Below are positions 8,464 through 38,890 of a DNA stretch of 64,000 nucleotides, piece by piece. A program made the translations under genes and the position numbers. The notes under the pieces are model-generated. The model did not search any database. It had not been told where the DNA came from and worked only from the letters and a program-made list of their open reading frames with translations. The stretch covers positions 372,001 through 436,000 of the forward strand of contig NZ_MZNT01000004.1 in assembly GCF_002042965.1 (NCBI RefSeq), in the 5' to 3' direction. Each line of letters starts with the position of its first letter. The first letter of the stretch is position 1. This stretch comes from Paenibacillus sp. 32352 (lineage in GTDB: Bacteria > Bacillota > Bacilli > Paenibacillales > NBRC-103111).

Positions 8464-8477
8464 GGGCATCCTCCTAA

Positions 8478-8623
8478 GGGCTTTCCGTAGGAAAGCCTAC
8501 TTCGTAAGCGTATCCTGAGGGCTTTGCATTGCAAAACCTTCTTCGTAAGCGTATCCTAAGGGCTTTGCATTGCAAAGCCTTCTTCGTAAGCGTATCCTGA
8601 GGGCTTTGCATTGCAAACCTGAG
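8478..8623. repeat. Tandem 41-bp palindromic repeat array, copies 1-4
   Basis: Units begin at 8478, 8519, 8560 and 8601, exactly 41 bases apart, with the last cut short. Each has a palindrome followed by TTCGTAAGC, then a GTATCCT spacer. The palindrome is GGCTTTCC/GGAAAGCC in copy 1 and GGCTTTGCA/TGCAAAGCC in copy 3, so both arms changed together. Copy 2 has one unpaired change. On the minus strand, copy 1 ends three bases before the AGGAGG of the gene at 8191-8463. Confidence 0.9.
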
Positions 8624-8629
8624 TCTGTT

Positions 8630-8820
8630 GAGAAACCTATCCATTTGCAAAATGCTATGGTATCTCGGTGAAATATTCCCCTCCGGCCGCTGTTGTTCTC
8701 GGAAAATATGGATTGTATATGTTGTCAGCGGGTATTTTCCGAGAACAAAGGCGGACGCTATTGCTCCTCCGGGGAATACCTCACCTGCCACCTTCACATT
8801 TTGTATATGACGGGTTTCTC
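8630..8820. repeat. 191-bp imperfect inverted-repeat element
   Basis: The ends are GAGAAACC (8630-8637) and GGTTTCTC (8813-8820). Inside them, CAAAATG pairs with CATTTTG and TATTCCCC with GGGGAATA. The 14-base inner stem GTTCTCGGAAAATA (8695-8708) pairs with its complement at 8733-8746 around a 24-base loop. The layout is that of a small non-autonomous element or a long structured RNA. It separates copies 1-4 from copies 5-6 of the 41-bp repeat. No ORF in it looks real. Confidence 0.7.
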
Positions 8821-8830
8821 GGTGACCTAA

Positions 8831-8895
8831 GGGCTTTCCGTAGGAAAGCCTGCTTCGTAAGCATAATCTAGTGGCTTTCCGCAGGTATGCCCTGA
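8831..8895. repeat. 41-bp palindromic repeat, copies 5 and 6
   Basis: Copy 5 (8831-8871) has the same GGCTTTCC/GGAAAGCC palindrome as copy 1, then GCTTCGTAAGC. Copy 6 starts 41 bases later at 8872 and is decayed (GGCTTTCCGCAGGTATGCC). It abuts the stop codon of the gene at 8897-9334. Confidence 0.85.
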
Positions 8896-8896
8896 G

Positions 8897-9334
8897 CTAG
8901 ACAAGCAGCAGGATGGTGTAACCCTGCGCATTCCATTTCTTCATTCTATGCAGCCACTCCAGAATCGGTTCGTCCACACCCACGTGGTCAAGCAGCTCCT
9001 CAGCCTGGGATAGCATGACATCCAACTCAGCTCCTGCAGGGCGCTTATCGATATAAGCATGCGCACAGTGAGAAAGCTCCAGACGGTCGGGGGTAAACAA
9101 GACAGGATCTCCTGAATCCAGCCGGAACGGCAGCTCGTCTACTCCGCATCGGATCTCCGCTTCTTCACTAAGCAGCAGGTTGGACTTAAAAGGCACGAGC
9201 AGTCGCGGATGAACAGACTTCATCAGCTGAAGAAAACGCTCTCTGTTTTCTACAGGAGCCAGTTCAAAGCGTTCGGGTAACAGTAAGCAGGAAGCTCCAT
9301 CCATCTTCAACGGTGCCAGCCAATAGCTTTTCAC
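8897..9334 (-). CDS. Hypothetical protein, 145 aa
   Basis: I do not recognise this protein. It is soluble, with no signal or membrane segment. It starts MKSYWLAPLKMDGASCLLLPERFE when the first codon is read as Met, and ends in a short hydrophobic segment (GYTILLLV). The start is a GTG at 9334 preceded by GCGGGTGAACAT. Nearby ATGs are out of frame. It lies 17 bases downstream of the ylaH-like gene, so the two are likely cotranscribed. Its stop codon abuts the hairpin repeats. Confidence 0.55.
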   Translation of the reverse strand: MKSYWLAPLKMDGASCLLLPERFELAPVENRERFLQLMKSVHPRLLVPFKSNLLLSEEAEIRCGVDELPFRLDSGDPVLFTPDRLELSHCAHAYIDKRPAGAELDVMLSQAEELLDHVGVDEPILEWLHRMKKWNAQGYTILLLV

Positions 9335-9351
9335 ATGTTCACCCGCTTTCG

Positions 9352-9636
9352 TTACTGCTCTTCCGGCTGCTGTTTTTTAGTGCGTCCTTCAATGAAATAA
9401 CGAATTCTGACAAGAAACATCAAGCCTACAGCAACGGCTAGGCACAGCACGATAGGAAGCGCTCCTAGCTGGAACAATAGCAGCATACCGGCGCCGATAG
9501 CGAGCATCAGGTAGACGATCGCTTCTTTGAGAATGGGAAGTCTGCGTACCTTGAATACTTTGTTGTACACGTAGCTGATTAGTACCAGGATAATCAAGTA
9601 TGTAATAACGGGATGCTCACGAAACCATTCGGTCAT
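9352..9636 (-). CDS. ylaH: YlaH-like small membrane protein
   Basis: A 94-residue protein with three hydrophobic helices, ending in a charged tail (EGRTKKQQPEEQ). Its size, topology and position next to typA (ylaG in B. subtilis) fit the YlaH-like family, whose function is unknown. I start at the ATG at 9636, before TEWFREHPVITY, because GAAGGAGG lies upstream, though at a long 11-base distance. An in-frame ATG at 9672 would add 12 residues and has no ribosome site. Confidence 0.65.
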   Translation of the reverse strand: MTEWFREHPVITYLIILVLISYVYNKVFKVRRLPILKEAIVYLMLAIGAGMLLLFQLGALPIVLCLAVAVGLMFLVRIRYFIEGRTKKQQPEEQ

Positions 9637-9744
9637 TGATGATATAACCTCCTTCAGGTGAGATACGCCCATCTAGGACAGTGGTAAGACCAAAAACAGC
9701 AGCAATACCAGCAGGAATAAATAGATCCAGAAAACTTTATTTGG

Positions 9745-9777
9745 TAAAAAGAAAGCTCTGAATCATCAGAGCTTTCT
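9745..9777 (-). terminator. Rho-independent terminator of typA
   Basis: AGAAAGCTCTGA and TCAGAGCTTTCT form a 12-base stem with an ATCA loop, followed on the minus strand by TTTTT. It lies just past the typA stop. Confidence 0.85.
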
Positions 9778-9786
9778 CCCATAAAT

Positions 9787-11634
9787 TTAAGCGTTAGCTT
9801 CAGCCATCTTGCGGTGCTTCTCAGCACGCTCGCGTTCGCTCTTGTTCAATATTTTTTTGCGCAGACGGATCGACTTTGGAGTGATTTCGCAATACTCGTC
9901 GTCGTTCAAATATTCCAGCGCTTGTTCCAGCGAGTAGATACGAGGAGTTTTCATCTTCACCGTATCGTCCTTACCGGCGGAGCGGATATTCGTCAATTGC
10001 TTTTCTTTACAGATGTTAACAATAATGTCGGTATCACGATTATGTTCGCCGACGATCATGCCTTCGTACACCTCAGTGCCCGGTTCTAAGAACAGGATAC
10101 CGCGGTCTTCAACCGACAGCATACCATACAAGGTCGAAGTCCCTGTTTCGCTGGATACCAGCACGCCCTCATGGCGTCCGCCTACTCCGGAACCGTAATA
10201 AGGTCCGTAGCTGTCAAACGCATGGTTCATAATGCCGTAACCGCGAGTCAAGGTCAGGAAGTACGTACGGTATCCGATCAAGCCGCGGGCAGGAATCAGG
10301 AATTCCAGACGCACATTGCCGTTACCGTTATTGATCATGTTAACCATCTCGGCTTTGCGGGTCCCAAGGCTTTCCATTACCGCACCCATGCTTTCTTCAG
10401 GCACGTCAATAATCAGACGCTCCAACGGCTCCATTTTTTGCCCGTCAATGACCTTGATAATAACTTCCGGCTTGGATACCTGAAGCTCGAAGCCTTCACG
10501 GCGCATATTCTCGATCAAGATGCCAAGATGCAGCTCACCGCGGCCCGATACGATAAAAGCATCCGGGCTATCCGTTTCCTCAACGCGCAAGCTGACATCG
10601 GTCTCAAGCTCTTTGAAAAGACGCTCGCGCAGCTTTCTGGAGGTAACCCATTTTCCTTCGCGTCCTGCGAATGGACTGTTGTTTACAAGGAATGTCATTT
10701 GCAGGGTTGGCTCATCAATCTTCAATACAGGCAGCGCCTCTGGATGAGCGGGATCTGCAATGGTCTCTCCGATGTTGATGTCCTTAATCCCCGAGATAGC
10801 GACAATATCCCCCGCTCCCGCTTCTTCAATCTCGATCCGCTTAAGACCTTGGAAACCGAAGAGCTTCTCGATCCGCGACTGCTTCGTAACGCCGTCACGA
10901 TTAATAACCGCTACCGGTTGTCCTTGCTTTACAACACCACGGTTGACACGTCCGATTGCAATACGTCCCAAGTACTCGTTGTAGTCCATCAAGGTCACCA
11001 AAAATTGCAGCGGTTCTTCCACGTTCTCTGTAGGGGCCGGAATATGGCTGACGACAGTCTCATAAATAGCCTGCATATTGTCGTCTTGCTTGGATGGATC
11101 GGAATCCAGACTGGAGGTCCCCATCAAAGCCGATGCATAAACAACCGGGAAATCCAATTGATCGTCGTTAGCTCCTAGCTCGATGAACAGATCCAGCACT
11201 TCATCGACTACTTCAGCCGGACGTGCGTTAGGACGGTCAATTTTATTCACGATAACAATAGGTGTGAGGTTTTGTTCCAAAGCTTTGCGCAGTACGAATT
11301 TCGTTTGCGGCATGGTGCCTTCAAATGCATCGACCACCAGCAAAACTCCGTCAACCATCTTCATAATACGTTCCACTTCGCCGCCAAAGTCGGCATGCCC
11401 TGGAGTATCTACGATGTTAATAAGGTAGTCTTTATAATTGATCGCCGTATTCTTTGCCAAAATCGTAATACCGCGTTCTCTCTCCAAATCATTGGAGTCC
11501 ATCGCACGTTCTTGAACCGTCTCGTGTTCGCGGAACGTACCTGATTGTTGAAGCAATTTGTCTACCAAAGTCGTTTTACCATGATCGACGTGAGCAATAA
11601 TCGCAATGTTGCGTATTTTATCTCTTGAATGCAT
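9787..11634 (-). CDS. typA: Translational GTPase TypA/BipA
   Basis: This 615-residue ribosome-binding GTPase is of standard length for the family and helps ribosome assembly and stress or cold adaptation. G1 AHVDHGKT lies at 14-21, DTPGH at 76-80 and NKID at 130-133. EF-G-like domains II, III and V follow, and then the TypA-specific C-terminal domain, with [15 protein letters not shown] and the basic tail [17 protein letters not shown]. The ATG follows AGGTAAGGGAAAAC. It corresponds to B. subtilis ylaG and keeps its position beside ylaH. It ends at a terminator, and the upstream terC-like gene has its own, so typA has its own promoter. Confidence 0.95.
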
Positions 11635-11711
11635 GTTTTCCCTTACCTCTCCTAAATTTGACCCTGTTACCTTGCTCTATGTTTAGAGCAGCCGGGGCCC
11701 GTTCCACAAAA

Positions 11712-11740
11712 CAAGCGTCGGACATAAGCGCCGACGCTTG
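11712..11740 (-). terminator. Rho-independent terminator of the terC-like gene
   Basis: CAAGCGTCGG and CCGACGCTTG pair around a nine-base loop, followed on the minus strand by TTTTGT. It lies about 90 bases past the terC-like stop and 80 before typA. Confidence 0.75.
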
Positions 11741-11830
11741 ACATTTACGTTTATTATACGTGCAAATAGTAAAAAAGGCAAGGCAAAACGACAAGATTAA
11801 CATGCCATTTACATCCTTTTTACATTCATG

Positions 11831-12499
11831 TTAGGAATGGTGCGGCTTCGGTCTTCCCGACAGTTTTTTCAGGACGCCGGCACCGATAACGATAATTACG
11901 CCCGCAACCGGGATAATCCAGTGCGGAATGTTTGAAAGCAGCAAGTCGGAAACCGATTTGTCTTTCACAAACATCTCTCCGGCCGTATAACCGAGAATAC
12001 CGGCCCCAAGGAAGACAAGAATAGGAAACTTCGTCAGCAGATTCATAACCAATGTGCTGCCCCAAATAATAATGGGAACGCTCAACCCGATACCCAAAAT
12101 AATAACGGCGATGTCGTTATTGGCTTTTGCCGCAATAGCAAGCACATTATCCAGACTCATGACGAAATCGGCAACAATAATAGTCCAAACCGCTTTGCCA
12201 AGTGTGGAAGCTTCCTTCACATTTGCATGACCGTCATCATCAATGAGCAGCTTGATGGCGATCCAGATCAGCAGGAGCGAGCCAGCCGCCTGCAGATAAG
12301 GCACCTGCAATATGTAAACGGCTATAACGGTAAGAATAAGGCGTAAGCCTATTGCCCCGAAAGCCCCCCACCAGATCGCTTTTTTTCGTTGACTTAACGG
12401 CAGATTTTTACTGGCCAAAGCAATAACAACCGCGTTATCGCCGCTTAATACGATATTGATTAACATAATCTGCAAGAAAAGCAGGAACCATTCTAACAT
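11831..12499 (-). CDS. TerC-family membrane protein, YjbE type (likely Mn2+ export)
   Basis: A 222-residue membrane protein with about seven helices. The paired motifs SGDNAVVIAL near the start and SLDNVLAIA in the middle carry the acidic residues conserved in TerC proteins. In B. subtilis, TerC relatives (YkoY/MeeY, YceF/MeeF) export manganese, partly to load secreted enzymes, and this is the likely role here. The short YjbE-type form fits the length. The ATG follows GGAGGTTAGAAGCGC. I looked for a yybP-ykoY manganese riboswitch in the roughly 80-base leader and saw none. Confidence 0.85.
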   Translation of the reverse strand: MLEWFLLFLQIMLINIVLSGDNAVVIALASKNLPLSQRKKAIWWGAFGAIGLRLILTVIAVYILQVPYLQAAGSLLLIWIAIKLLIDDDGHANVKEASTLGKAVWTIIVADFVMSLDNVLAIAAKANNDIAVIILGIGLSVPIIIWGSTLVMNLLTKFPILVFLGAGILGYTAGEMFVKDKSVSDLLLSNIPHWIIPVAGVIIVIGAGVLKKLSGRPKPHHS

Positions 12500-12580
12500 G
12501 CGCTTCTAACCTCCAAATTCGCTATCCATATAGTCCATTCCACTTCATACGCTGCATTCGGCATCCCGTTTCGCAATCAT

Positions 12581-13783
12581 TTAGAAAAAGCTTGAGAATT
12601 TGGACTCCTGCCCTGCATGAATCCAGACGGTTTCCGTCATTTGCGCCGCGCGGTCAATTTCCTCCTCCAGCCATTCCATTTGCTTCTCGATGCTCATAAC
12701 TACCCGCAAATTCGGATTGGTGCTCGGCGACGGCGGAAGAAAGAGCGTACAGCAATCTTCATGAGGCTGGATCGAAATAGCAAACGTATCGATCGTCTCC
12801 GCAATGTCAATGATTTGCTGCTTCTCCATACAAATCAAAGGCTGAATAACTGGCAGGTCCACTGCTCTGCCGATAACGTTCATGCTGGCGAGTGTTTGGC
12901 TCGCCACTTGCCCGAGGCTTTCTCCCGTAACGATAGCCATGGCCTCATTGGCTTCGGCAAGCTTCTCCGTAATACGAAACATAGCCCGTCTTAATATAGT
13001 AATCAGAAGGTTTTGGTTATATGACTGATGAACCCGGGTTTGCAGATCGGTGAAGGGAACGAGATGAAGCTTGATATCGCCTCCATATTCCGATAGCTTG
13101 CCAACCAGATCCTTTACTTTTTGCTGGGACCGCTCGGAGGTATAAGGGTAGCTGTGAAAATGAACCGCTTCGATCCTCAAGCCCTGTCGCATCGCGAGGA
13201 ACCCGGCCACCGGGCTGTCTATGCCTCCCGAAAGCATGAGCATCGCCTTCCCATTCGTGCCGACCGGGAACCCTCCTGCCCCAGCTTCTACCTGGGAATA
13301 AATAAGCGCCCGCTCTTCGCGGAGCTCCACCTTCAGCTCCACTTCAGGACGATGGACATCGACCTTGAGACCAGGTATAGCGCGCAGCACAGCAGCGCTA
13401 ACCCGTTGATTCATTTCTTGAGAATCATACGGAAAGCTTTTATTCACACGTCTTACCGATACTTTAAAGCTGTCCGGCACCCGTCCGATCTTGAGCATAG
13501 CTTCTAACGCGACGGATTGAACGGCTTCAAGCTCCAGAGGAGCCGTAAAGACTGGACTGAACGAAGTCAGCCCCAGTATTGTTTTCAAGCGAAGGGCTAT
13601 CTCCTCATACGGCTCGCCATTTAGCGTAATGTATACTCTTCCAAAATCGCGCTGAAACGTTAAGCGATCATAGGGCCGCAGCTTTTTTCTAATTTGCTCG
13701 TAGACCGTTTTTTCAAAACGGTGCCTGTTTTTTCCTTTTAACACAAGTTCCCCGAGGCGGAGAACTATCAAATCCGGTGCCAT
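12581..13783 (-). CDS. thiI: tRNA 4-thiouridine synthase ThiI
   Basis: ThiI adenylates U8 of tRNA and transfers sulfur to form 4-thiouridine. In some bacteria it also supplies sulfur for the thiamin thiazole. The 400-residue protein has an N-terminal ferredoxin-like/THUMP part (about 60-165) and the PP-loop SGGIDS at 185-190. It ends without the rhodanese domain of E. coli ThiI, the normal Bacillus form. Such short ThiI proteins work with a dedicated cysteine desulfurase, and one lies two bases upstream. The ATG follows GGAGGTAGCT. Confidence 0.95.
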   Translation of the reverse strand: MAPDLIVLRLGELVLKGKNRHRFEKTVYEQIRKKLRPYDRLTFQRDFGRVYITLNGEPYEEIALRLKTILGLTSFSPVFTAPLELEAVQSVALEAMLKIGRVPDSFKVSVRRVNKSFPYDSQEMNQRVSAAVLRAIPGLKVDVHRPEVELKVELREERALIYSQVEAGAGGFPVGTNGKAMLMLSGGIDSPVAGFLAMRQGLRIEAVHFHSYPYTSERSQQKVKDLVGKLSEYGGDIKLHLVPFTDLQTRVHQSYNQNLLITILRRAMFRITEKLAEANEAMAIVTGESLGQVASQTLASMNVIGRAVDLPVIQPLICMEKQQIIDIAETIDTFAISIQPHEDCCTLFLPPSPSTNPNLRVVMSIEKQMEWLEEEIDRAAQMTETVWIHAGQESKFSSFF

Positions 13784-13785
13784 AG

Positions 13786-14952
13786 CTACCTCCGTCTGCT
13801 CTGAGTTGTCATTGTCGGTTTTAATTTTTCTACAACCTCACGCAATGCCCGGCCAAAAAATTCCGCATCCTCCATGCTCTGGTCCAGCGAGTAGCTAAGC
13901 CGGATTCCATGCGCCGCTCTTGCATCGTCATATCCCATAGCATGAAGCACCCGGCTGGGCAGTTCAGCTCCCGACGAGCATGCAGATCGGGTCGAAACAT
14001 AGATCTGATGCTGTTCTAAAGCATGAACTAGAACCTCCGACTTCATACCCGGAAAAGAAAAATGAACGATATGGGGCGCCATATCCTCTGCGCGCTCGGA
14101 TCCGCTCAGCTTAAGCTCCGGAATGGCTTGAATCGCCGAAACAAACCTTTCACGCAGTCTGGAGGTATGCTCGAAAAACGTTTCGCGGTGATCATAAGCG
14201 ATTCGCACGGCTTTAGCCATTCCGACTACGGCAGGAACATTCTCCGTTCCCGACCGGATACCCGCTTCCTGTCCGCCTCCCCAAAGCAAGGGTGTAAGCT
14301 CCAGTCCTTGCCGGCAATAGAGGAACCCTATACCCTTGGGGCCGCGAAGCTTATGTGCAGAGCAAGAAAACAGATCGATTCGCTGCTTGACCGGGTCTAT
14401 CGGCAGCTTGCCGACCGCTTGAACGGCGTCAACGTGAAAGACCGCTTTAGGATAGCTTCTTAAGAGCTCCCCTATTTCCGAAATCGGCTGTATTCGTCCC
14501 ATCTCGTTATTGACGGCCATAATGCTGACTAGAATCGTATCGTCCGTCAAAGCCTGCTCCAAATGATCCATACGGACACATCCGGTCTCATCAACGGGCA
14601 AATAGGTAACCCGGAAGCCTTGATGCTCCAGCTGCTGAAATGTCTCGTAGACGGATGCATGCTCGATGACGCTGGTTATTATATGGTTGCCGCGGTGCCT
14701 GAACTTGCTTACAGTCCCTTGAATAGCCAAATTGTTGCTTTCCGTTCCTCCGGAAGTAAAGCGGATTTCGTCAGGAAGCACATTCAAGCACTTGGCTATT
14801 ACAGCCCTGGATTGCCGGATCAGCTGCTCCGCCTCCATACCGATGCGATGCAGGGAAGAAGGGTTGCCGAAATGCTTCTTCATGATCTCAGCCATCGTAT
14901 CGACGACTTCGTCATAAGGAGGCGTCGTCGCCGCATAATCCAAATACAGCAT
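13786..14952 (-). CDS. Cysteine desulfurase (NifZ/IscS-like partner of ThiI)
   Basis: A PLP-dependent enzyme that converts cysteine to alanine and carries the sulfur as a persulfide. It has 388 residues. The PLP-binding Lys is K201 in SCSAHKLRGPKG and the active-site Cys is C325 in STRSACSSG. Also visible are the substrate-loop sequences GGTESNN and GGGQEAGIRSGTEN. It sits directly before thiI, with only two bases between the stop and the next ATG, so it is probably the dedicated sulfur donor for tRNA thiolation, as B. subtilis NifZ is for its ThiI. Confidence 0.93.
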   Translation of the reverse strand: MLYLDYAATTPPYDEVVDTMAEIMKKHFGNPSSLHRIGMEAEQLIRQSRAVIAKCLNVLPDEIRFTSGGTESNNLAIQGTVSKFRHRGNHIITSVIEHASVYETFQQLEHQGFRVTYLPVDETGCVRMDHLEQALTDDTILVSIMAVNNEMGRIQPISEIGELLRSYPKAVFHVDAVQAVGKLPIDPVKQRIDLFSCSAHKLRGPKGIGFLYCRQGLELTPLLWGGGQEAGIRSGTENVPAVVGMAKAVRIAYDHRETFFEHTSRLRERFVSAIQAIPELKLSGSERAEDMAPHIVHFSFPGMKSEVLVHALEQHQIYVSTRSACSSGAELPSRVLHAMGYDDARAAHGIRLSYSLDQSMEDAEFFGRALREVVEKLKPTMTTQSRRR

Positions 14953-14971
14953 GCCATATCCCTCCTTATCA

Positions 14972-15028
14972 TAAAAATAAGACCCAGCTTAAGCCCCTTC
15001 CAAGAACAGGGCGCTTGCAGTAGGTCTT
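14972..15028 (-). terminator. Rho-independent terminator of the lytic transglycosylase gene
   Basis: On the minus strand AAGACC pairs with GGTCTT and AAGCGCCC with GGGGCTT around a small loop, followed by ATTTTT. It separates this gene from the desulfurase gene. Confidence 0.7.
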
Positions 15029-15043
15029 GGTATATTGCCGCAG

Positions 15044-15745
15044 TTAAGCTTCATAATCACGCTGCAGTCGCAGCACCTTGCCTACATAAGCTTGGGTTTC
15101 GCTCGGCAATAAATGCATCTTGGACTTCAGCTCTTGATCGTTCGTAATTCCTAAACGGTCTATTCGTCCCGGACCCGCATTATAAGCAGCTAATGCAACA
15201 CCGCGGTTCCCATTGTACTTCTGGAGCAAACCGGCCAGATACTGGGTTCCGCCATTAATATTTTGGGCTGGATCAAACGGGTTCGTTACCCCTAATCCCC
15301 TGCTGGTGCCATCCATAAGCTGCATTAAGCCTTTGGCTCCAGCTCCGGACACCGCCCACGGATTAAAAGAGGATTCCGTATCAATGACCGCTTTGACCAA
15401 GCTGGATTGAACGCCGTGCTTACGGCTTGCGCTTTCTATTAAAGCTTCAAGATCTCCGGCTGATTTCACGCTGCCCGGCTTCTGTACGGAAGCATACGCC
15501 CCATAAGGCATAACAGGAACATAACTGTTCCGAAAAGGCTGCAACGAACCGGAAGAAGCGATCGTCCCAGCTGCCGCCAACGGTCTATCGGAGCTCGATG
15601 CCGATGAGGATAACAGACTGTTCAGGATTTCCGAGAAATTAGTATCGTCTTCCGTCGCAGTCTGCGCACTCGAAGATAACAAGCTTGATTTGCTTAAGAT
15701 CTGAAGCTGAAGCAATTCCTTAATCGTTCTAGGGTCAATGTTCAT
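15044..15745 (-). CDS. Lytic transglycosylase, SLT domain
   Basis: A 233-residue protein with a Ser/Ala-rich N-terminal 90 residues and a C-terminal SLT domain (about 100-233). VIDTESSFNPWAVS holds the catalytic Glu124, followed by GAKGLMQLM and AYNAGPGRI, the classic Slt motifs. It cleaves peptidoglycan glycan strands to 1,6-anhydro ends. No clear signal peptide is visible from the ATG at 15745 or from the ATG at 15808, so export is unexplained. B. subtilis YjbJ is similar in type. The ribosome site (AGGGAG, 12 bases away) is weak, which leaves the start uncertain. Confidence 0.8.
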   Translation of the reverse strand: MNIDPRTIKELLQLQILSKSSLLSSSAQTATEDDTNFSEILNSLLSSSASSSDRPLAAAGTIASSGSLQPFRNSYVPVMPYGAYASVQKPGSVKSAGDLEALIESASRKHGVQSSLVKAVIDTESSFNPWAVSGAGAKGLMQLMDGTSRGLGVTNPFDPAQNINGGTQYLAGLLQKYNGNRGVALAAYNAGPGRIDRLGITNDQELKSKMHLLPSETQAYVGKVLRLQRDYEA

Positions 15746-15873
15746 TTCTGTTATATGCTCCCTATTCCCAGTTTCACCCCCTATTGTACACTGTTTTGGA
15801 CTTGCCATCCAGTTCTTTTTGCACTAATTGTCAGAAACCTATGGTTACGTTGTTTCAAAGCTTAGGTAAACAT

Positions 15874-15906
15874 AAAAAAGCACAGGATATCCCATACCCC
15901 GTGCTT
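15874..15906 (-). terminator. Rho-independent terminator of the gene at 15945
   Basis: On the minus strand AAGCAC pairs with GTGCTT and GGTAT with ATATCC inside it, followed by TTTTTT. Confidence 0.75.
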
Positions 15907-15944
15907 GGTAATAAACCTGCCATGATGAAATGATAAAATACCCG

Positions 15945-16367: not shown

Positions 16368-16403
16368 AGGTTATCCCTCCGATCTGCCTGATCGTAGCTA
16401 AGA

Positions 16404-16610: not shown

Positions 16611-16657
16611 CCATATCACCCCCTCCTCAATGTGCCCGAAGAAGGGGGGGCGCTATA

Positions 16658-20534: not shown

Positions 20535-20945
20535 CAGGAAAGCTTGCCGTAAGCCGGGTTCTGTACTTCCAGTGGTCGTAACGGGTACCACCCTCCCACC
20601 GTTGAAGCGACAATCATCTATCTAGGCCAAACATTGCTGCTTGGCTCAAGCGACCAACCCGAACGCGTCCCGGGCAAGGACTATCTTCGAAAAGATGTGC
20701 GTTCCATTAGGTCTTGCTCCAAATGGGGTTTACCAGGACATATGTCACCATATCTCCTCGTGGTCTCTTACACCACGGTTCCACCCTTGCCTGTGCGAAG
20801 GGCAAGCCCTCCGCCATCGGCGGTCCATTTCTGTGGCACTAGCCTTCAGCTCGCGCTGACTGGACGTTATCCAGCATTCTGCCCTGCGGAGCCCGGACTT
20901 TCCTCTCGTGATTTCTCACCAGCGATTGTCTGTCAAGCTTTCCTG
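20535..20945 (-). ncRNA. rnpB: RNase P RNA (B-type)
   Basis: This is the catalytic RNA of RNase P, which trims tRNA 5' leaders together with the RnpA protein. On the minus strand the ends CAGGAAAGCTTG and CAAGCTTTCCTG form helix P1. Conserved blocks are GAGAGGAAAGTCCGGGCTCC near the 5' end, GGTAAACCCC and GAGCAAGACC in the middle, and ACAGAACCCGGCTTA near the 3' end. The length of about 411 bases fits the Bacillus class. A promoter lies just upstream and a terminator just downstream. Confidence 0.95.
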
Positions 20946-29441: not shown

Positions 29442-29586
29442 GTGCGTATCAATCCCCTCTCCTAAGAGCTTTCCAAGGAACGCTTGACGTTGTAATCAAA
29501 GACATTAGATGGACTGTTCTTGCCTACAAGATTAGGATGATACGAAATGGCCGGAAGTATCCCAAGTAATAACTGGCATGAAGAGC

Positions 29587-30498: not shown

Positions 30499-30502
30499 TC
30501 GA

Positions 30503-30913: not shown

Positions 30914-30943
30914 AGTTATCATCCCCGTCCGAGAAATGGAATG

Positions 30944-31645
30944 TTATATATTCATCAAATAGTAAGCAAGAGCAGACACAAACCCTCCGATAACAGCTCC
31001 CAGCAGCAGCGAAGCAAAGCCTCTGCCGCGCTTATCGTATAATACCATCATAACCACAATAGCCAGTAAATACGCCAGAAGCGCTATAAAAGTAACGTTG
31101 GTATAACAGGTAATAAAGGTTGCAATGGCGAAAGCGACCGCCGACAACAGACTAGGTTGGACCCAGCTCCCTCTGCGTGAAAATCTTGTTTCCACAACAA
31201 TAACCGTCAGCATGACCAGACAAAGCAAAATCCATATGGAGCCAGCCGATAATGCATGCCCCTCTACGTTCTTGGCTTCGCGGAACAACCGGTCGATCGG
31301 CTCGTAAAAAACGACCATGCCTACAATAGCGGCAAAAGCCGCAGACACCAGTACGGAGGCTGCGGCCACATCCTTGGCTATTTTGGCCAGCGGATGACGG
31401 TCCGGCATGGCAAGATCGACCGTTTTTTCTATTGCCGTATTAATAAGCTCCGTAACGATCATCAGCGTCACGGCCAACAGCAGAAACAAAATTTCCAGCT
31501 TATGCAGATGGAAGAACAAGGCCATCAGCAGCACGACGAAAGCGGCAAAAAAATGAAACTTCATATTACGCTGCGTAGATAAGGCATATTTCACTCCTTC
31601 ATACGCGAACCGAAAGCTTCTATGCCACTTCACCTTCGGTCTCAC
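30944..31645 (-). CDS. dgkA: Diacylglycerol/undecaprenol kinase (DgkA) with C-terminal membrane extension
   Basis: The first 125 residues are a normal DgkA: an amphipathic start, three helices and the signature [16 protein letters not shown] (Glu66, Asn69, Glu73) followed by [10 protein letters not shown]. In Gram-positive bacteria such enzymes phosphorylate undecaprenol for cell-wall lipid recycling. Residues about 130-233 add three or four more membrane helices that the roughly 123-residue B. subtilis DgkA lacks. No PAP2 phosphatase motif (KxxxxxxRP, PSGH) is visible in them. The GTG start overlaps the ybeY stop by four bases (GTGA), so the genes are coupled. Confidence 0.88.
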
Positions 31646-32196
31646 CGGACAAGACCCGCCTGCTGTAAAATGTGCTCCTGCTTTCCAAACATCACTTTCT
31701 CTTCTTCCTCGCTTTGATGGTCATAACCTATGAGGTGAAGGAAGCCATGGACGAATAAAAATCCAAGCTCCCGTTCTACGGAATGACCGTATTCCTCGCT
31801 TTGCGCGATGGCTCTTGGCACGGAAATGATGATGTCGCCAAGCGGTTCCTCGAATTCCTCTTCGTCGTCTTCTGCCGAATCGTTTTCTTCATCGAGCCGT
31901 TTGACGTCCTCAAGATCGCTCTCCGAGAAATCCTCTTCATCGAATATGATCTCGATCTCATCGTCGCCCATTTCCTGCATGGCGAAGGAAAGCACATCCG
32001 TCGGCTTGTCAAGATTGCGATACTCTTTATTCAAACGCTGAATTTCTGCATCATCGACGAAGGTTAAAGCTACCTCTCCGTCCGTCACATTCTCGGATTG
32101 GCCTGCAAGCACCAATAGCTCGCGAAGCTTCGCAATCAGCTCATCCGAGATAGCGAATTCCTCTTGCTCGTTGTTCCATTCCAATCGCAGACTCAT
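31642..32196 (-). CDS. ybeY: Endoribonuclease YbeY (16S rRNA maturation)
   Basis: A zinc RNase needed for 16S rRNA 3' processing and ribosome quality control. It has 184 residues, against about 155 in common homologues. The metal motif [11 protein letters not shown] gives His150, His154 and His160. The excess is an acidic insert at about 77-117, rich in Asp and Glu, between LSFAMQEMG and LGDIIIS. The ATG follows AAGGAGCTAGACGT, and the gene is four bases downstream of pgpH. It corresponds to B. subtilis yqfG. Confidence 0.93.
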
Positions 32197-32200
32197 ACGT

Positions 32201-34453
32201 CTAGCTCCTTTTCACCTGCTTAGCCTCTTCATTCTGATTCGTCCCCGGAAGATCGCTCGGGTATTCAATTCTCGAATGAAAGATGCCAAGCAGCGTTTCG
32301 TTCAAAGTTTTGGCTACTTGATCCAGCTCTTTTATCGTCAAATCGCATTCGTTAAATTGACCGTCGTCCAAACGGTTTTTAATGATTTTGCGGACCATGC
32401 TGTCAATTTGCTCCAGGGTCGGGTTGCGGAGCGACCGCACCGCCGCCTCCAGTGAATCCGCAATCCCTACGATAGCGGCTTCCTTGGATTGAGCTTTCGG
32501 TCCGGGATACCGGAAATCCTCTTCTTCCACCGGCTTAGGATCGTTACTCGCCTCTGCGAGCTTCTTGGCCTTGTGATAGAAATATTGCAGCAGCGTTGTT
32601 CCATGATGCTGTTCGGCAATGTCCCGAATCGGCTTGGGAATGTTGTACTCCTTCAACATCTCCACCCCGTCCCTGGCGTGGGCGACGATGATGGATTTAC
32701 TTAATGCCGGATCCATCTTGTCATGCGGATTTTCCATATGGTTCTGGTTCTCAATAAAGTAATTCGGGCGCTTGGTCTTGCCGATATCATGATAGTAAGC
32801 GCCGACTCTGCACAAGAGTCCGTCCGCTCCGATGGATACGGCAGCCGCTTCGGCCAGATTGCCGACCATAATGCTGTGATGGTAGGTCCCCGGCGTCTCC
32901 GTCAGCAGCTTGCGCAGCAGCGGATGATTCGGGTTCGACAGCTCCACCAGCTTAAGTGGTGACAAGATGCCGAATGCAGCCTCGAAGAACGGCAGCAGCC
33001 CGATGACGAATACGGCTGTGAGCAAGCCGCCGCCTACGACGAACGAAAGGGCGAACAGCATGCCCTTCTTTGTCTCATGATCGTCGATCAACAGAAGGGA
33101 GCCAATAAGCGCTATTCCAAGCAGCGAGACGATCATGCCCGCTTTCAGGACGGATGCCCTTTGGCTTGCCCGCTGGATAGAGAAGATCGCCGCGAACGAG
33201 GTAGCGAGCGTCAGTAACCCGTACCGGAAATCAAACGGCTGGAGATGGTCCGTGTTAAAGATCACACTCGCCATAACGCTGAATACAACGGTTGCAACAA
33301 ATGCCAGGTTCACATCCAGCAAAATCGTAATCAGCATAGCTCCCATAGCCGTAGGAGCAAGAAACCCGATGTACGGATAATCCAAATTTTGAACAAGGGA
33401 AAACAGCTTCATTCCCAAAATATTAATAAGAAAAATAAGAACAAGCATCAGCAGCTGGACATTATTATGACTTACGGCCAACGTACTCTGTTTGACGAAC
33501 ATAAAGATTACGAGACCGAACAGCACGACCAGCAGCAGCAGTCCTATTTTGGGCCAGTAGCTGGACTCGTCCTTCAGCATTTCTAGGCTGCTCAGCCGTT
33601 GATAGATTTCCTCGGTAATCACGGCGCCCTTTTTGACAAGGACCTCGTTTTTATTAATGAACACCGGTTTCACATTATCACGCGCATGGCCTTTGGCTTC
33701 ATCAGTTCCCTTTTGATCAAAAAACTTGTTTGGGGTAATGGAAGCCCGGACGAGCTCCAGCACCATCTCCCTCGATGTGCTTTTGGTCAGGGTTGACGTG
33801 TTCACCAGCTCGGCGACTTTCGCTCTTGCGGTCTGCGCGTCCATAATCTGATCGTTCATCAGCCTGGTTGCAATATCTTTGGCCACCGGCTCCATGGCCG
33901 TAAGATCTTCCTTGGACACGCGAGGCATCTTGTAATACGTCTCTTCGGGAATGCGATACTGCTGCTCGCGTATTATTTTGCGCATTTCCTGAAGCAGCAT
34001 CTCATTATACTGGCCGCTGTCCATATAGGTTTTGATCTGTTTTTCCACGTGATCGTCGATAAGATTCGGGATCACCGTTTTGAAAATATTGACTTTATCT
34101 CCGAGCGTAACTTCGGTATCGGCATTAATCTGCTGCAGCTTCTCGAATATCGCTTCCATCAGAATTTCGTTCTTCAGTCCGACGATGCGGTACACGGGCT
34201 GTACCTTTTGCGCCGCATCCTCCTTAGCCTGCTCGGTTGCAATAGCATTCTCAATGGCCCGGGGGGCCAGAATATCCTTTTCCGCCGTAGATCCTACTTG
34301 AATGTCGTACGTTTGCGGGATCAATTTCCCCATTAAAGCCATATAAAACATGACCGTTAGCACTAAAAACAGAAGAAAGCGCACAAGGGCGCTGTATTTC
34401 CAGCCGGCAAGCTTGTAATGGAACTTGCCCTGGATTGAAACCTGGTTCTTCAT
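32201..34453 (-). CDS. pgpH: PgpH-type cyclic-di-AMP phosphodiesterase (7TM-HD)
   Basis: A 750-residue membrane HD-domain hydrolase (YqfF). After one N-terminal helix (about 25-45) comes an extracytoplasmic domain (about 50-290). Seven helices follow (about 300-490), then a cytoplasmic HD domain with [23 protein letters not shown] and HHGT as metal ligands. Listeria PgpH with this layout degrades c-di-AMP to pApA, controlling turgor and beta-lactam tolerance. The start lacks a strong ribosome site; AAGGG lies about 13 bases before it. It sits between phoH and ybeY as in B. subtilis. Confidence 0.92.
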
Positions 34454-34506
34454 CTCGAAAGGTCATCCCTTTCACAGCTCTCCCACTATGGTTTTCATGA
34501 AACGAG

Positions 34507-35472
34507 CTATTTTTCTTTATCCTCTTGGTAAGCAACAATAATCCTCTGAACCAATGAGTGTCTGACGACATCCGCTTCGGCAAACTCGATAAATCCGATT
34601 TCCTCGATCTGTCTTAAAATGCGGTGCGCTTCCACCAAACCGGACGACTTCCCTCTTGGCAGGTCGATCTGGGTTACATCCCCTGTAATGACCATCTTCG
34701 AGCCAAACCCGAGACGGGTCAAAAACATCTTCATCTGCTCGGGAGTCGTATTCTGCGCTTCGTCCAAAATAATAAAGGAATCATCCAGCGTTCTGCCGCG
34801 CATATAGGCGAGCGGAGCGATTTCAATAAGCCCTCTTTCGAGCGACTTAATCACCTGCTCAGGGCCCAGCACGTCATTAAGAGCATCATACAATGGACGT
34901 AAGTAAGGGTCAACCTTTTCTTGCAGATCCCCCGGCAAAAAACCAAGGCTTTCGCCGGCTTCTACCGCAGGACGCGTTAGAACAATTCGTTTGACCTTGC
35001 CTTCCTTCAACGCCGAAACGGCCAGCACGACGGCAATATAGGTTTTTCCTGTACCCGCAGGTCCGATTCCGAAGACAATATCCTTTTGCTTAATGGTCGA
35101 TACATACTGCTTCTGCCCAATCGTTTTGACACGGATCGGTTTTCCTTTGTGCGTTGTAGCTATTTCTCCCTTGAACAGATCCAGCAGCTGGTCCGCTTTC
35201 ATCTGCTTGGACAGCTCCAGCGCATAATGAATATCCCGTTCGCTTAAGATGTAATTATTGCGAACTAGCTCAAGCAGCACTTCAAACAGCTGCTGCAGCG
35301 ATTCCGTTTCGGCTGCCGGCCCCTGGATAACGATTTCTTCCTCGCGCGATTGAATTCTGGCATCGGTTTGCTGCTCGATCAGATGCAGAAACTTGTCCTG
35401 CGGACCAAACAAAGCCAATCCCTCCGCCGTGTTTTTCAGTGATACTTTCACAATACGTGCATTGTCGATCAA
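34507..35472 (-). CDS. phoH: PhoH family ATPase (PhoH/YbeZ type)
   Basis: A 321-residue PhoH-like ATPase (PhoL/YbeZ) usually encoded next to ybeY and thought to work with it on RNA. The N-terminal 110 residues are a KH-like region. Walker A GPAGTGKT is at 137-144 and Walker B FIILDEAQN near 231. It is distinct from the PIN-PhoH protein at 5532-6863. The start is a TTG at 35472, with AAGGAGAAG upstream. It follows yqfD and precedes pgpH as in B. subtilis. Confidence 0.92.
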   Translation of the reverse strand: MIDNARIVKVSLKNTAEGLALFGPQDKFLHLIEQQTDARIQSREEEIVIQGPAAETESLQQLFEVLLELVRNNYILSERDIHYALELSKQMKADQLLDLFKGEIATTHKGKPIRVKTIGQKQYVSTIKQKDIVFGIGPAGTGKTYIAVVLAVSALKEGKVKRIVLTRPAVEAGESLGFLPGDLQEKVDPYLRPLYDALNDVLGPEQVIKSLERGLIEIAPLAYMRGRTLDDSFIILDEAQNTTPEQMKMFLTRLGFGSKMVITGDVTQIDLPRGKSSGLVEAHRILRQIEEIGFIEFAEADVVRHSLVQRIIVAYQEDKEK

Positions 35473-35500
35473 CAGGCCTCTTCTCCTTCAAGCGAACACG

Positions 35501-36682
35501 TTATGGAATAATAGGTTGCTCTTGAGTGATAGATTCTTCTACTTCCAAATGTACTTCCATATAAACTTTACCATTCTCCGTCTTTTCATGCAAAATTTTT
35601 TCATTGACGACCTTGGCATCCGGTCCGGCCGACGCCAAAATTTCCTTCTTTGCCTCTTCGATCCCCAGTGCCCTGGCAACCTGCGGATCCAATGATTTCT
35701 CCATCACATGGACCTGCATGACCTTCTCATTCAGCCAGCCGATCGGCAAATTGTACGTTCCGATTTGCAGCGTTTTTCTCTCCGGAATCGTTTCAAATTG
35801 CTCGAACCCCGTCTTTCCGTATCCTGTCAGCTGCAGCGCGCGATTGCCGAAGACCAGATAGGAACGCTCCTTGACCTCTCCGGTATATACTTTATACTGC
35901 TGAACCAAAGGAACCTCCACCTTGGGCGAATACCATACCAATCCCCTGACCTCCCCGGATGCCACCACAGTCTGGCGGTTGACCTCGTCCCCCAAAATAC
36001 CGGATATGAGGATGTCCCCTTTTTTCACATACGTATTCGTCTTGACCAGCGGCCTCCCTTTTTCCGCCAATATGTAAGTCACCATCCCGCTTTTGGATGC
36101 GACCAAATGTCTAGGATTAAGCAGCGGCTGCTTATCGGGCACCGTGGCCTCGACCACTTTGATAATAATATGTGTGCCATGGACCTCCACTCCGACCCAT
36201 GCGGTTCCTGGCAGCTTGCTTTGCATCGCTCTTGACATGACATCGGGGTTTTTCAGTCTGTATTTCCATTGCAGCTTGTAAATGCCTTGCTCCTTGGCTG
36301 CTTCAAGCACCTGCTGCGTACTGATCAGCTCATTGCCTTCCACCCGGACCTGCCAGATGACAGAGGACAGCATGTACAACCCGATGACGAAACCGATGAT
36401 GCCAATGGCAAATATTTTTCTTTTCTCTAGTTTGTCCAACAAAAAAGGAAGGCCATGCCTCGTGCGGACATGCACCCGGCAGCCTGTCTCCTTCAAGAGC
36501 GGACGAAGTCGGAAATAATCCTTCACAACGATAAACATCTCGGCATGTGTCTCGTCCACTATCCGGATGTCCCAAACCGACATCTTCTTTTCAGACAAAG
36601 CATTGATCAGCCTTTCAAGCTGTCCGCCCCTGATTTCAATCAGCACATAACCGCGCAGCGATAAGAGAAAAGATGATTTCAC
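35501..36682 (-). CDS. yqfD: Sporulation protein YqfD (SpoIV-type)
   Basis: A 393-residue membrane protein of the YqfD family, made in the mother cell during sporulation. The N-terminal about 85 residues are soluble, one membrane helix follows (FAIGIIGFVIGLYMLSSVIW), and the rest is outside, with FtsQ/POTRA-like features. The GTG start at 36682 follows AGAGGTGTCTGACA. It is 14 bases downstream of yqfC, and a possible sigma-E promoter precedes that gene. The exact role in sporulation is not known. Confidence 0.92.
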   Translation of the reverse strand: MKSSFLLSLRGYVLIEIRGGQLERLINALSEKKMSVWDIRIVDETHAEMFIVVKDYFRLRPLLKETGCRVHVRTRHGLPFLLDKLEKRKIFAIGIIGFVIGLYMLSSVIWQVRVEGNELISTQQVLEAAKEQGIYKLQWKYRLKNPDVMSRAMQSKLPGTAWVGVEVHGTHIIIKVVEATVPDKQPLLNPRHLVASKSGMVTYILAEKGRPLVKTNTYVKKGDILISGILGDEVNRQTVVASGEVRGLVWYSPKVEVPLVQQYKVYTGEVKERSYLVFGNRALQLTGYGKTGFEQFETIPERKTLQIGTYNLPIGWLNEKVMQVHVMEKSLDPQVARALGIEEAKKEILASAGPDAKVVNEKILHEKTENGKVYMEVHLEVEESITQEQPIIP

Positions 36683-36696
36683 TGTCAGACACCTCT

Positions 36697-36975
36697 TTAC
36701 GGGATAAATTTGACGTCTTCTATAACCCCTTCAATAAAGACTTCCTCGGTTAAAATAGCCCGGATCACCAGCTGCTTACCGCGAACCTCCAGGCTTCCTT
36801 TGTTCAGCGCCAATCGCATCAGCTCGTTGGAAAAATGCAAGACGCCCCGGTGATTTTCTATATAGAGCTGCATGTTGCCAATAAGAGTCATTCGGGGAAG
36901 ATCCAGAACAAGGTCCTGGGGAAGGTCCAGCAGCTTGGCGGTGATTTGGTTGAATTTACGAGTCAGACTGCGCAT
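36697..36975 (-). CDS. yqfC: Sporulation protein YqfC
   Basis: A 92-residue YabP/YqfC-family protein with the family features PRMTLIGNMQLYIENHRGV and a beta-rich remainder ending EGVIEDVKFIP. In B. subtilis yqfC and yqfD are transcribed together under sigma-E in the mother cell. The ATG follows GAGGGGGAATCGT. A sigma-E-like promoter lies at 37053-37081. Confidence 0.92.
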   Translation of the reverse strand: MRSLTRKFNQITAKLLDLPQDLVLDLPRMTLIGNMQLYIENHRGVLHFSNELMRLALNKGSLEVRGKQLVIRAILTEEVFIEGVIEDVKFIP

Positions 36976-37052
36976 ACGATTCCCCCTCAGAGTTGTGATC
37001 CTTTTGCATTGCGGCTCTATTTACCGCCCTTATATAAGCACAGGCTATTTAC

Positions 37053-37081
37053 ACCATATGCTGGAAATCAGCAGATTATGA
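37053..37081 (-). promoter_or_regulatory. Possible sigma-E promoter of yqfCD
   Basis: On the minus strand TCATAAT (37081-37075), exactly 14 bases, then CATATGGT (37060-37053). Compared with the sigma-E pattern KMATATT-14-CATACAMT, the first element matches six of seven positions and the second about five of eight. It rests on motif match and on the known sigma-E dependence of yqfCD. The rest of 36976-37165 shows only an 11-base direct repeat (ATATCCTTTCG at 37105 and 37135). Confidence 0.35.
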
Positions 37082-37165
37082 AGAGAGGCGGAACTTTTAA
37101 GGAGATATCCTTTCGCTTTCCTAGGATCGGCGGCATATCCTTTCGGAGCATAACAGCTGCCCATA

Positions 37166-37208
37166 CAAAAAAAGCACCGCTCCAACTTCGGGTTGGAAAA
37201 CGGTGCTT
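37166..37208 (-). terminator. Rho-independent terminator of the floA-side operon
   Basis: On the minus strand AAGCACCG pairs with CGGTGCTT and CCAAC with GTTGG inside it, followed by TTTTTTTG. It separates the gene at 37223 from yqfC. Confidence 0.8.
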
Positions 37209-37222
37209 CGGATCTTATTTTA

Positions 37223-37732
37223 TTACTTACGGAACGGCTTCTTGGCTCTGGGAGGGCCAAGAATTTCAGCCCAGATGATCCCTTGAGCCAACTGTTCTGC
37301 TGACGGCTGGCCCGGTGTTATAGGCTTTTCGGATGTAAAAGGCTGCCGGGAGGACCGGTTGGCGGATCCGGACGCTGTCTTCCTGCTATGTTCCAGAGGA
37401 GAGTTATTCCAGTAATCCGTCGTTTCCGGGCCTTCAGAGGCCGCAGGAGCCGGTTTCGGCTGTTCCTGGAGCTGTGGATTCACAGGTCTCCCAGATGGTT
37501 CAGAACGCGGTTTAACGTCTTTATTTTGTGTGACCGTTTGCTTTCTCGTTCTCCCCCATCCGGTGCCAGCGGCCCCTCCTCCGGCAAACGGAGGCATTCC
37601 TTGCTTCGGAGCGGCCGGTTTGTCGGGATCATTCTGCGTTTTGGACTTGAACATCTTGCCGATATTGCTCAAAACAATAAAAGCAATGACCACTAAAAAC
37701 CAGTTGTTGAGAATGAGCTGGATGAGCTTCAT
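37223..37732 (-). CDS. Hypothetical single-pass membrane protein in the yqfB position
   Basis: A 169-residue protein with one N-terminal membrane helix (IQLILNNWFLVVIAFIVLSNIG) and a long low-complexity tail rich in Pro, Gly, Ser and Lys (GGGAAGTGWGRTRKQ). The C-terminus, AEQLAQGIIWAEILGPPRAKK, is the only conserved-looking part. It lies between floA and yqfC, where B. subtilis has yqfB, but I see no sequence match to claim. The disordered tail suggests an anchor or scaffold role near FloA membrane domains, which is an inference from position alone. Confidence 0.6.
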   Translation of the reverse strand: MKLIQLILNNWFLVVIAFIVLSNIGKMFKSKTQNDPDKPAAPKQGMPPFAGGGAAGTGWGRTRKQTVTQNKDVKPRSEPSGRPVNPQLQEQPKPAPAASEGPETTDYWNNSPLEHSRKTASGSANRSSRQPFTSEKPITPGQPSAEQLAQGIIWAEILGPPRAKKPFRK

Positions 37733-37768
37733 GTAAGCACGCTCCTTTGGCGGTTCATACCGGAGGCG

Positions 37769-38758
37769 TTATTCCCGGTCATCTTGCTTGCCGCCGTCAT
37801 TCATTTTTCCCAAGGAGGAGCGCATTTGCGTATCGGCGTCGATATTCTTCAAATTCATATAATCCATTACGCCCATCTGTCCGCTGCGAAGCGCCTCCGC
37901 CATCGCCAGCGGCACTTGCGATTCGGATTCAACCACCTTGGCTTTCATTTCAACGACCTTAGCCTTCATCTCCTGCTCGTGAGCAACAGCCATTGCACGG
38001 CGCTCCTCCGCTTTCGCCTGGGCGATTCGCTTGTCTGCCTCCGCCTGTTCGGTTTGCAGATGGGCACCGATATTTTTACCGACGTCCACATCGGCAATAT
38101 CAATGGACAATATTTCAAAAGCCGTACCGGCATCAAGTCCCTTGCCCAGTACCGTTCTCGAAATCAGATCCGGATTCTCAAGCACGTCTTTATGGGAATT
38201 CGACGAACCTACGGTCGTTACAATTCCTTCGCCGACACGGGCGATGATCGTTTCCTCCCCGGCGCCCCCGACCAGGCGATCGATGTTCGCGCGCACGGTA
38301 ACTCTTGCAATAACTTTGACTTCAATCCCGTCCTTGGCTACGGCAGACACCGTAGGCGTTTCGATGACTCGAGGGTTAACGCTCATTTGAACCGCTTGAA
38401 GCACGTCACGGCCGGCCAAATCGATAGCTGCCGCGCGTTCGAACTCGAGGTGAATATTGGCACGATGGGCCGCAATTAATGCATTGACAACCCGGTCTAC
38501 GTTACCTCCAGCAAGGAAGTGGCTTTCCAGCTGATTGATCGTGACGTCAATTCCCGCCTTGGTCGCCTTGATCATTGGATTTACGATACGGCTTGGTATT
38601 ACGCGGCGAAGGCGCATAGCCACAAGGGTAATAATCCCGATGCGCACGCCGGATGCTAACGCGGAAATCCATAGCATGATCGGAAAAAAGCTTAAAAACA
38701 CGGACAGCGCTATAATAATTATCGCTGCTATTAACAATACGAAAACGATAGAGTTCAT
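37769..38758 (-). CDS. floA: Flotillin-like protein FloA (YqfA)
   Basis: A 329-residue bacterial flotillin that organises membrane microdomains. The N-terminal 50 residues hold the membrane segments, then the PHB domain (about 60-230) and an Ala/Glu-rich coiled coil (about 230-300, [20 protein letters not shown]). The ATG at 38758 follows GAGGAGGTTCAAAC. Directly upstream of that ribosome site lies a tandem hairpin-repeat array (38773-38890) that must form the leader if the mRNA starts before nfeD ends or in nfeD. NfeD proteins and flotillins are functional partners. Confidence 0.95.
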
Positions 38759-38772
38759 GTTTGAACCTCCTC

Positions 38773-38890
38773 AGAGTTTTTTGCGCCAGCAAAAAACTGG
38801 CTTCGTAAGCAGTTGCTTAGAGTTTTTTTGCGCCAGCAAAAAAACTGGCTTCGCAAGCTTTCGCTTTGTTTTTGCGCCAGCAACTGGCTT
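38773..38890. repeat. Tandem palindromic repeat array upstream of floA
   Basis: Three copies, the first two 46 bases apart. Copy 1 (38775-38798) has arms AGTTTTTTGC and GCAAAAAACT around GCCA. Copy 2 (38821-38846) has one extra T in the left arm and one extra A in the right, so pairing is kept. Copy 3 (38868-38890) is shorter and decayed. After copy 1 comes GGCTTCGTAAGC and after copy 2 GGCTTCGCAAGC, the same module that follows the 41-bp repeats at 8.5 kb. GCCAG and CTGGC offer an alternative pairing. Confidence 0.88.

Follow-up and report, generated by a model that had tools for sequence, protein, structure and literature searches.

A tag-hairpin repeat adjoining Shine-Dalgarno sequences in Paenibacillus and its relatives

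Several described systems resemble the repeat reported here. In Bacillus subtilis, single hairpins between the cistrons of cggR-gapA and glnRA shield the downstream mRNA at its 5′ end once RNase Y has cut (PMC11780869), and intergenic stem-loops steer processing and stability in a clostridial operon (PMC10311766). REP elements are small palindromes found at many genomic positions, with subfamily-specific stems and, at the stem foot, an unpaired GTAG or CGTC tag (PMC3733652). The TAACTGA direct repeats of marine Beggiatoaceae stand in tandem shortly before the start codons of genes of mixed function and recur in distant hosts, with no evident spreading mechanism (PMC4679880). Here we describe a family of tag-hairpin units, often in tandem, most sites of which end immediately 5′ of a Shine-Dalgarno (SD) sequence. 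Two arrays of such units lie in a 64,000-nucleotide (nt) stretch of Paenibacillus sp. 32352 (contig NZ_MZNT01000004.1, positions 372,001 to 436,000; hereafter the window), one preceding floA and the other a small gene that starts at window position 8463.

Structure and placement of the unit

Read in the mRNA sense, a unit has the tag GCTTACGAAG and, 1-3 nt further on, a hairpin with an oriented loop on a stem of about 7-9 bp; usually CTnA and the SD of the gene itself follow. We searched the 7.93-Mb genome of the strain with a covariance model of the tag and hairpin, trained on 18 sequences (31 columns) and omitting the SD to avoid circularity. From 159 matches we used 141 units, grouping into 70 sites; these were the listed rows with E-values up to 0.092, minus one partial match on the opposite strand, with weaker or unlisted rows excluded. 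The flanks of all 70 sites were read, and classes were set by eye.

SD-linked sites made up 49 of the 70, every one in the mRNA sense. At 47 sites the SD starts 2-3 nt past the last stem position. Of the two further SD-linked sites, one shows this ending at the next unit along, which scores below the cut; at the other, an AAAGGGG ribosome site follows CTTAG. The other sites adjoin 5S rRNA (4), belong to composite repeats (15; 13 in one composite and 2 in another), or are weak, chance-looking matches (2). Among the 47 with an SD at 2-3 nt, a crude open reading frame caller placed a gene upstream on the same strand at 41, a raw count with no genome background computed. A strong SD lies at exactly 3 nt in 210 of 237 units, some of which were retrieved by a pattern that prescribes this spacing. 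The initial annotation had proposed, from the window, a modular dispersed family with a constant tag, an exchangeable hairpin and an end that meets the ribosome site. This census bears the proposal out, as does a genome search for the tag followed by AGGA with 8-35 bases between, which returned 45 rows, some overlapping, against 7 for a reversed control pattern.

In the window, the exact tag occurs five times, at 8500, 8541, 8582, 8853 and 38801, on the minus strand only. Matches with at most one mismatch number 14 against 3.9 expected, a count reached by none of 100 shuffles. The tag count exceeds chance, and across the genome the majority of copies stand in sense right in front of a start codon, neither far from one nor in random orientation. 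The two arrays and their genes are laid out as follows.

8191..8463, minus strand: gene downstream of the first array, about 90 amino acids (open reading frame translation)
8470..8475, minus strand: SD AGGAGG of the gene starting at 8463, 3 nt past the last stem (read from the sequence)
8479..8509, minus strand: SD-proximal unit of the 8463 gene; tag 8500-8509, hairpin GGCTTTCC-TAC-GGAAAGCC; model match C38:380479-380509
8520..8550, minus strand: unit 2 of the 8463 gene; tag 8541-8550
8561..8591, minus strand: unit 3 of the 8463 gene; tag 8582-8591; period 41
8592..8617, minus strand: remnant half unit, hairpin and linker without tag
8832..8862, minus strand: lone upstream unit; tag 8853-8862; a composite palindromic repeat lies between it and the array
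37769..38758, minus strand: floA, flotillin-like protein (database call)
38766..38771, minus strand: SD AGGAGG of floA, 3 nt past the last stem; ATG at 38758
38775..38810, minus strand: SD-proximal unit of floA; tag 38801-38810, hairpin AGTTTTTTGC-TGGC-GCAAAAAACT
38821..38858, minus strand: unit 2 of floA; variant tag GCTTGCGAAG at 38849-38858
38868..38887, minus strand: remnant hairpin of a third floA unit, without tag
38908-40320, minus strand (same strand as floA): NfeD protein, upstream neighbour of floA

As first annotated, the array before the 8463 gene ends in hairpin-CTT-AGGAGG (SD 8475-8470, mRNA sense) and that before floA in hairpin-CTG-AGGAGG (SD 38771-38766). The accompanying statement that the two hairpins are unrelated was wrong: they follow a common scheme in which the stem starts R-G-Y-T-T-T and closes A-A-A-R-C-Y, with differences that keep pairing. 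As the NfeD gene is co-directional with floA, the floA array lies between two genes of a probable operon. The product of 8191..8463 had no NCBIfam or Pfam match at E 0.001. Elsewhere in the window, a bacterial RNase P RNA of class A lies at 20535-20941 on the minus strand (Rfam score 275).

The composite repeats place the same module in another setting. Members of the 13-site composite have a CCGGCC-like flank, the tag and hairpin, and mostly then a second, longer palindrome; two of the 13 sites face each other, at the ends of one copy. The second composite (L063, C3:109246; L064, C3:74233) has a tag-hairpin unit, GGTCGCTCATCTT and further small hairpins, in two near-identical copies. In the window, a palindromic composite repeat at 8659-8825, with 25-nt arms (8684-8708 and 8733-8757) and TTCTCGGAAAATA, separates the lone unit from the array; similar palindromes adjoin tag-hairpin units at the composite sites of the genome.

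At the junction to 5S rRNA in L074, the element finishes at base 355 and the 5S rRNA runs from 356 (Rfam); L068, L072 and L092 have the same junction. In a genome of another genus (G092), the unit stops one base short of 5S rRNA. In genus g35, of another family in the order, a GCTTCCGAAG-hairpin unit lies in the 16S-23S spacer about 57 nt past the 16S end (L370, L371, L374).

Variation within arrays and between species

Stem sequence varies while pairing holds. Between species, identity among 82 SD-proximal units of 20 genes was 92% in the tag, 81% in the stem arms, 59% in loops of the same length and 44% in the 30 nt upstream of the tag. Stem-pair comparisons in these units gave 882 identical pairs and 188 that had changed from one Watson-Crick pair to another; 7 pairs differed on one side (4 to G-U) and 10 on both sides without pairing. 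In the 18 training units, 98.6% of cells were paired, and two-sided changed cells numbered 19 against 6.0 in shuffles, with none of 500 shuffles reaching either this count or the covariation score. The loop is mostly T-N-C and keeps one orientation (TTC 69 vs GAA 1, TAC 55 vs GTA 0). Loop inversion as an indication of template switching is thus not supported. We dropped a mini-open-reading-frame reading of the tag (ATG CTT ACG AAG TAA), since the bases ahead of it vary.

Arrays are tandem, with a period of about 38-41. Stems are mostly alike within an array and unlike between arrays, which suggests that arrays probably grew by local duplication; some arrays, such as that of divIB, mix two types. 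Mismatched pairs were rarer in SD-proximal stems (14 of 1298) than in internal ones (35 of 1283; p 0.002). Counted by position from the SD in 56 arrays, they amounted to 2 of 446 in first units, 16 of 440 in second and 9 of 221 in third units, and a smaller gap set behaved alike. The SD-proximal and internal mismatch and wobble counts omit L001-L030 and L137-L216, which were fetched via AGGA or outer-stem patterns. Better pairing next to the SD fits selection at the SD and growth with the newest unit last alike.

Orthologous gaps were compared in 5 of the 12 relatives from the genus, for the genes behind 20 of the 47 sites that adjoin an SD; 108 candidate gap rows, less 8 judged to be paralogues, left 100 gaps. 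Model matches filled 61 of these, 52 in a subset of 83 gaps and 9 among the other 17. In the filled gaps the SD lay 2-3 nt past the last matched stem in 59 of 61 (51 of 52 and 8 of 9). Both exceptions were in G011: accC, with the SD 21 nt on, and E2, where the SD-adjoining unit was visible but below the cut. At ruvB, the stop codon in G002 is directly followed by the SD, while G007 has two units in between. Of 13 genus genomes, 10 have floA; the array precedes it in four (our strain, G007, G010 and G002) and, by eye, in none of the other six. At flgG our strain has 7 model matches, G010 has 3, G002 has 1, G007 has a half remnant and G006 has none. By these sequence comparisons, copy number turns over quickly between species.

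These alleles also indicate to what the SD belongs. The spacer between SD and start codon was 55% identical (445/804) when a filled orthologue was set against an empty one, compared with 32% between different genes. The 12 nt 5′ of the SD were 33% identical between filled and empty orthologues, the same as background (33%), and 60% identical between filled sites of different genes. The 83-gap subset gave 56, 32, 32, 32 and 60% for the same series. As the spacer is gene-specific and the 5′ flank is at background, the SD and spacer are the gene's own, with the element starting at the SD edge. The initial annotation had left open whether the element inserts at translation signals or carries them. 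The element sitting at the signal is now favoured, and its carrying the signal disfavoured, as SD and spacer resemble those of element-less orthologues; we reject an SD carried by the element, since the spacer is gene-specific in empty alleles too. Looser anchoring gave the same picture, but pairs of empty alleles also lost identity 5′ of the SD, so that this drop alone is no proof of insertion. From presence and absence between species, we infer that filled gaps probably originated by insertion. By eye, and without a closely related pair to compare, filled and empty alleles showed no obvious target duplication.

At some genes the module persists. Before fur, a unit was present in all 6 genus genomes compared, and also in G012. 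For rpmJ, we required a perfect stem of at least 7 bp, 1-5 nt from the SD, with a recognisable tag (at most 3 mismatches). The module was found in 17 of 28 genomes and 13 of 22 genera, with differing stem sequences; units also precede rpmJ in six genomes of g35. It was missing in 11 of the 28, among them G017, where the upstream stop codon overlaps the SD. As a control, the same criterion applied to 40 SD starts of the window found a hairpin only at floA (the 8463 gene falls below the length cut). That 13 of the 22 genera have the module before rpmJ suggests that some copies play a role beyond insertion alone. The initial annotation had foreseen neither this placement nor the copies adjoining 5S rRNA and inside composite repeats.

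The family extends beyond the genus. At E 0.001, and with at most 150 candidates scored per genome, all 13 genus genomes had model matches, 12 of them with 46-154. At family level (E 1e-5), 89 of 104 genomes and 14 of 22 genera had matches; at order level, 269 of 392 genomes and 25 of 49 genera. A scan of named genomes with a strict pattern including the SD found at least 112 stretches, a lower bound that says nothing on absence in other taxa; the 80 listed are titled Paenibacillus or are Paenibacillaceae or Bacilli metagenome bins. Variant forms were also seen. In G274 and G221 (L384, L385), tandem units with periods of 65 and 67 keep the tag and outer stem, with the loop enlarged by a long insert, and at L385 TTTTAGGAGG and a start codon still close the array. 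In G127 and G131 (L376, L377, L378), other dispersed repeats (AGAGGTTGTTCAAAAAGTCCGC...) bear a tag-like hairpin.

Candidate explanations

We tentatively favour the view, which falls short of being probable, that these are portable hairpin modules, lying mostly between cistrons at the 5′ edge of the next gene's SD, that would act in the transcript by capping or insulating the downstream cistron. The single-stranded tag would serve as an endonuclease entry (RNase Y-type) or for binding. The downstream cistron would start with the hairpin as its protected 5′ end, and the cistron's stability or translation would be uncoupled from the upstream gene. Arrays would form via local tandem duplication and new sites via a transfer route. 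A role at the transcript level is favoured by the position at the SD, the co-directional gaps, a loop that is strand-specific and the module's persistence at some genes. Also in favour of the capping module are the stem changes that keep pairing, the fewer mismatches in SD-proximal stems and the B. subtilis stabilisers. A module of the stabiliser type would also explain the constant tag, the indifference to hairpin sequence, the intact SD and the use before 5S rRNA.

Several results weigh against a capping module. By the model, 39 of the 100 orthologous gaps were empty, and the genes behind the arrays of our strain are functionally mixed (gene identities in this survey are our own interpretation of translations, except floA, a database call). 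The compensatory share of differing stem pairs, 188 of 205, is an upper limit since the finder demands a stem (105 of 110 on the 83-gap subset, in which the stem arms were also slightly more conserved). In the training set, the number of pairs with two-sided change did not exceed shuffles (73 of 500 reach it). Selection at the RNA level would be expected to tolerate G-U, and G-U was not favoured over A-C (5:4 in SD-proximal and 9:12 in internal stems); lacking a G-U preference, the wobble test decides for neither DNA nor RNA. Predicted SD accessibility was 0.42 in 80 filled and 0.45 in 38 empty gaps (p 0.36), with filled above empty in 6 of 17 genes. We therefore reject a hairpin that keeps the SD open, for which a smaller gap set gave a like result.

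The main rival is a selfish, non-autonomous DNA element whose single-stranded hairpin would be inserted by an enzyme just 5′ of an SD-like sequence (on the other strand, 3′ of CCTCC) and tolerated because it leaves the SD intact. This is a serious though doubtful possibility. It accords with presence and absence at orthologous gaps, including tight empty alleles such as ruvB in G002 beside the two units of G007, with a spacer that belongs to the gene, with unrelated target genes and with the lack of a G-U excess. The module also lies away from SDs at the 15 composite sites, two of them face-to-face at the ends of one copy. Yet a stem sequence mostly belongs to its locus and is shared within the array, rather than coming from one pool common to all sites; the module is kept at rpmJ in 13 genera and at fur in the genus genomes compared; and insertion beside 5S rRNA does not match an SD target. 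Nor was an enzyme apparent: at E 1e-6, the Y1 transposase family PF01797 was not found in our strain and nine of its twelve genus relatives (G000, G002, G003 and G006-G012, thus 10 of the 13 genomes of the genus; the search was limited to this transposase family), while it is present in 33 of 104 family genomes. A RAYT or IS200 transposase as the current mobiliser is accordingly not supported, within that search. Selfish spread and the capping module are compatible, since copies could have spread first and been put to use afterwards.

A bolder form of the capping reading strikes us as somewhat unlikely. It would posit an undescribed, genome-wide class of RNA end-modules: a tag-hairpin cassette recognised by shape and tag, installed at the 5′ edge of SDs and 5S rRNA. 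In Paenibacillus and its relatives, this cassette would fix the 5′ ends of the cistrons behind it; it would multiply into tandem arrays and stay perfect through concerted change in both arms.

Control of translation, in which a protein or small RNA would bind the tag-hairpin, or heat would melt it, and so gate the adjacent SD of many genes, is unlikely. The fixed distance to the SD, the strongly conserved 10-nt tag and the oriented loop (counts above) speak for it. But the hairpin excludes the SD, whose predicted accessibility is unchanged, occupancy varies among related species, and 5S rRNA has no SD. The genes read form no coherent regulon, and we reject a regulon reading as they are functionally mixed.

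Intergenic DNA often contains hairpins, but chance similarity or intrinsic terminators are highly improbable and were rejected on counts and on the sequence after the stem: the tag count beats shuffles, the control pattern gave 7 rows against 45, the SD-blind model found 141 units at 70 sites, and at SD-linked sites a G+C-rich stem followed by a T run was not found, the stems being followed by CTnAGGAGG.

Small dispersed repeats in bacteria are usually viewed as intergenic debris, loosely placed. This family is locked in position, to within about 1 nt, relative to the ribosome site of dozens of unrelated, partly essential genes, and it turns over between species, yet occupies one ribosomal-protein gap in 13 of the 22 genera examined. 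It thus raises two testable questions: how a repeat spreads so precisely, and whether a standard module sets expression cistron by cistron within operons. In practical terms, gene starts and 5′ leaders of Paenibacillus bear a repeat able to mislead motif finders.

Comparison with described systems

A search against Rfam 15 matched nothing at the two window arrays at E-values up to 5; at L009, L020, L074 and L347 the arrays were likewise without a match, and only rRNA genes scored above gathering. Among the matches listed in a search of openly licensed literature, we found no description or named family, though one may exist elsewhere. MITEs, BOX, RUP and bcr repeats are small, interspersed and possibly non-autonomous mobile elements. 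The present family shares their small, interspersed character. It differs in its SD-fixed position, and in the SD-linked units, which are single hairpins, we recognised no terminal inverted repeat with target duplication.

Stem-loop families of 40 bacterial genomes were surveyed in 2008, and the name Paenibacillus does not appear in the part of that survey drawn on here (PMC2267715). REP elements resemble the family in being short and dispersed, with an unpaired tag at one end and varying stems (PMC3733652). The tag here is GCTTACGAAG, with CTnAG on the other side, in place of the GTAG or CGTC of REPs (PMC3733652). Unlike REP/RAYT systems, 10 of the 13 genus genomes lack a Y1 transposase, and the units lie in sense directly 5′ of SDs, in tandem arrays of one orientation. 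REP stems often contain GT pairs, which are rare in the Paenibacillus units, and the main text of the REP paper has no occurrence of Paenibacillus or Firmicutes (PMC3733652).

TAACTGA repeats share with the present family their tandem arrangement, their position upstream of the starts of mixed genes and their patchy distribution over hosts (PMC4679880). They consist of a heptamer that lies near the start codon and overlaps the place expected for a ribosome site, an SD being mostly absent (PMC4679880). The units described here, by contrast, are structured, about 40 nt long and followed by a strong SD.

The intercistronic hairpins of cggR-gapA and glnRA likewise lie in the gap between cistrons, on the 5′ side of the downstream one (PMC11780869). 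The present family has this arrangement, with a hairpin 5′ of the downstream cistron at 47 of 70 sites, 41 of these 47 between genes on the same strand. The B. subtilis stabilisers are individual sites with a weak RNase Y consensus (PMC11780869), unlike the one tag and geometry that recur here at dozens of genes, in tandem arrays and flush with the SD. Small dispersed structured repeats are a known kind, and there is a real chance that anchoring to the SD and 5S rRNA makes this family a kind of its own.

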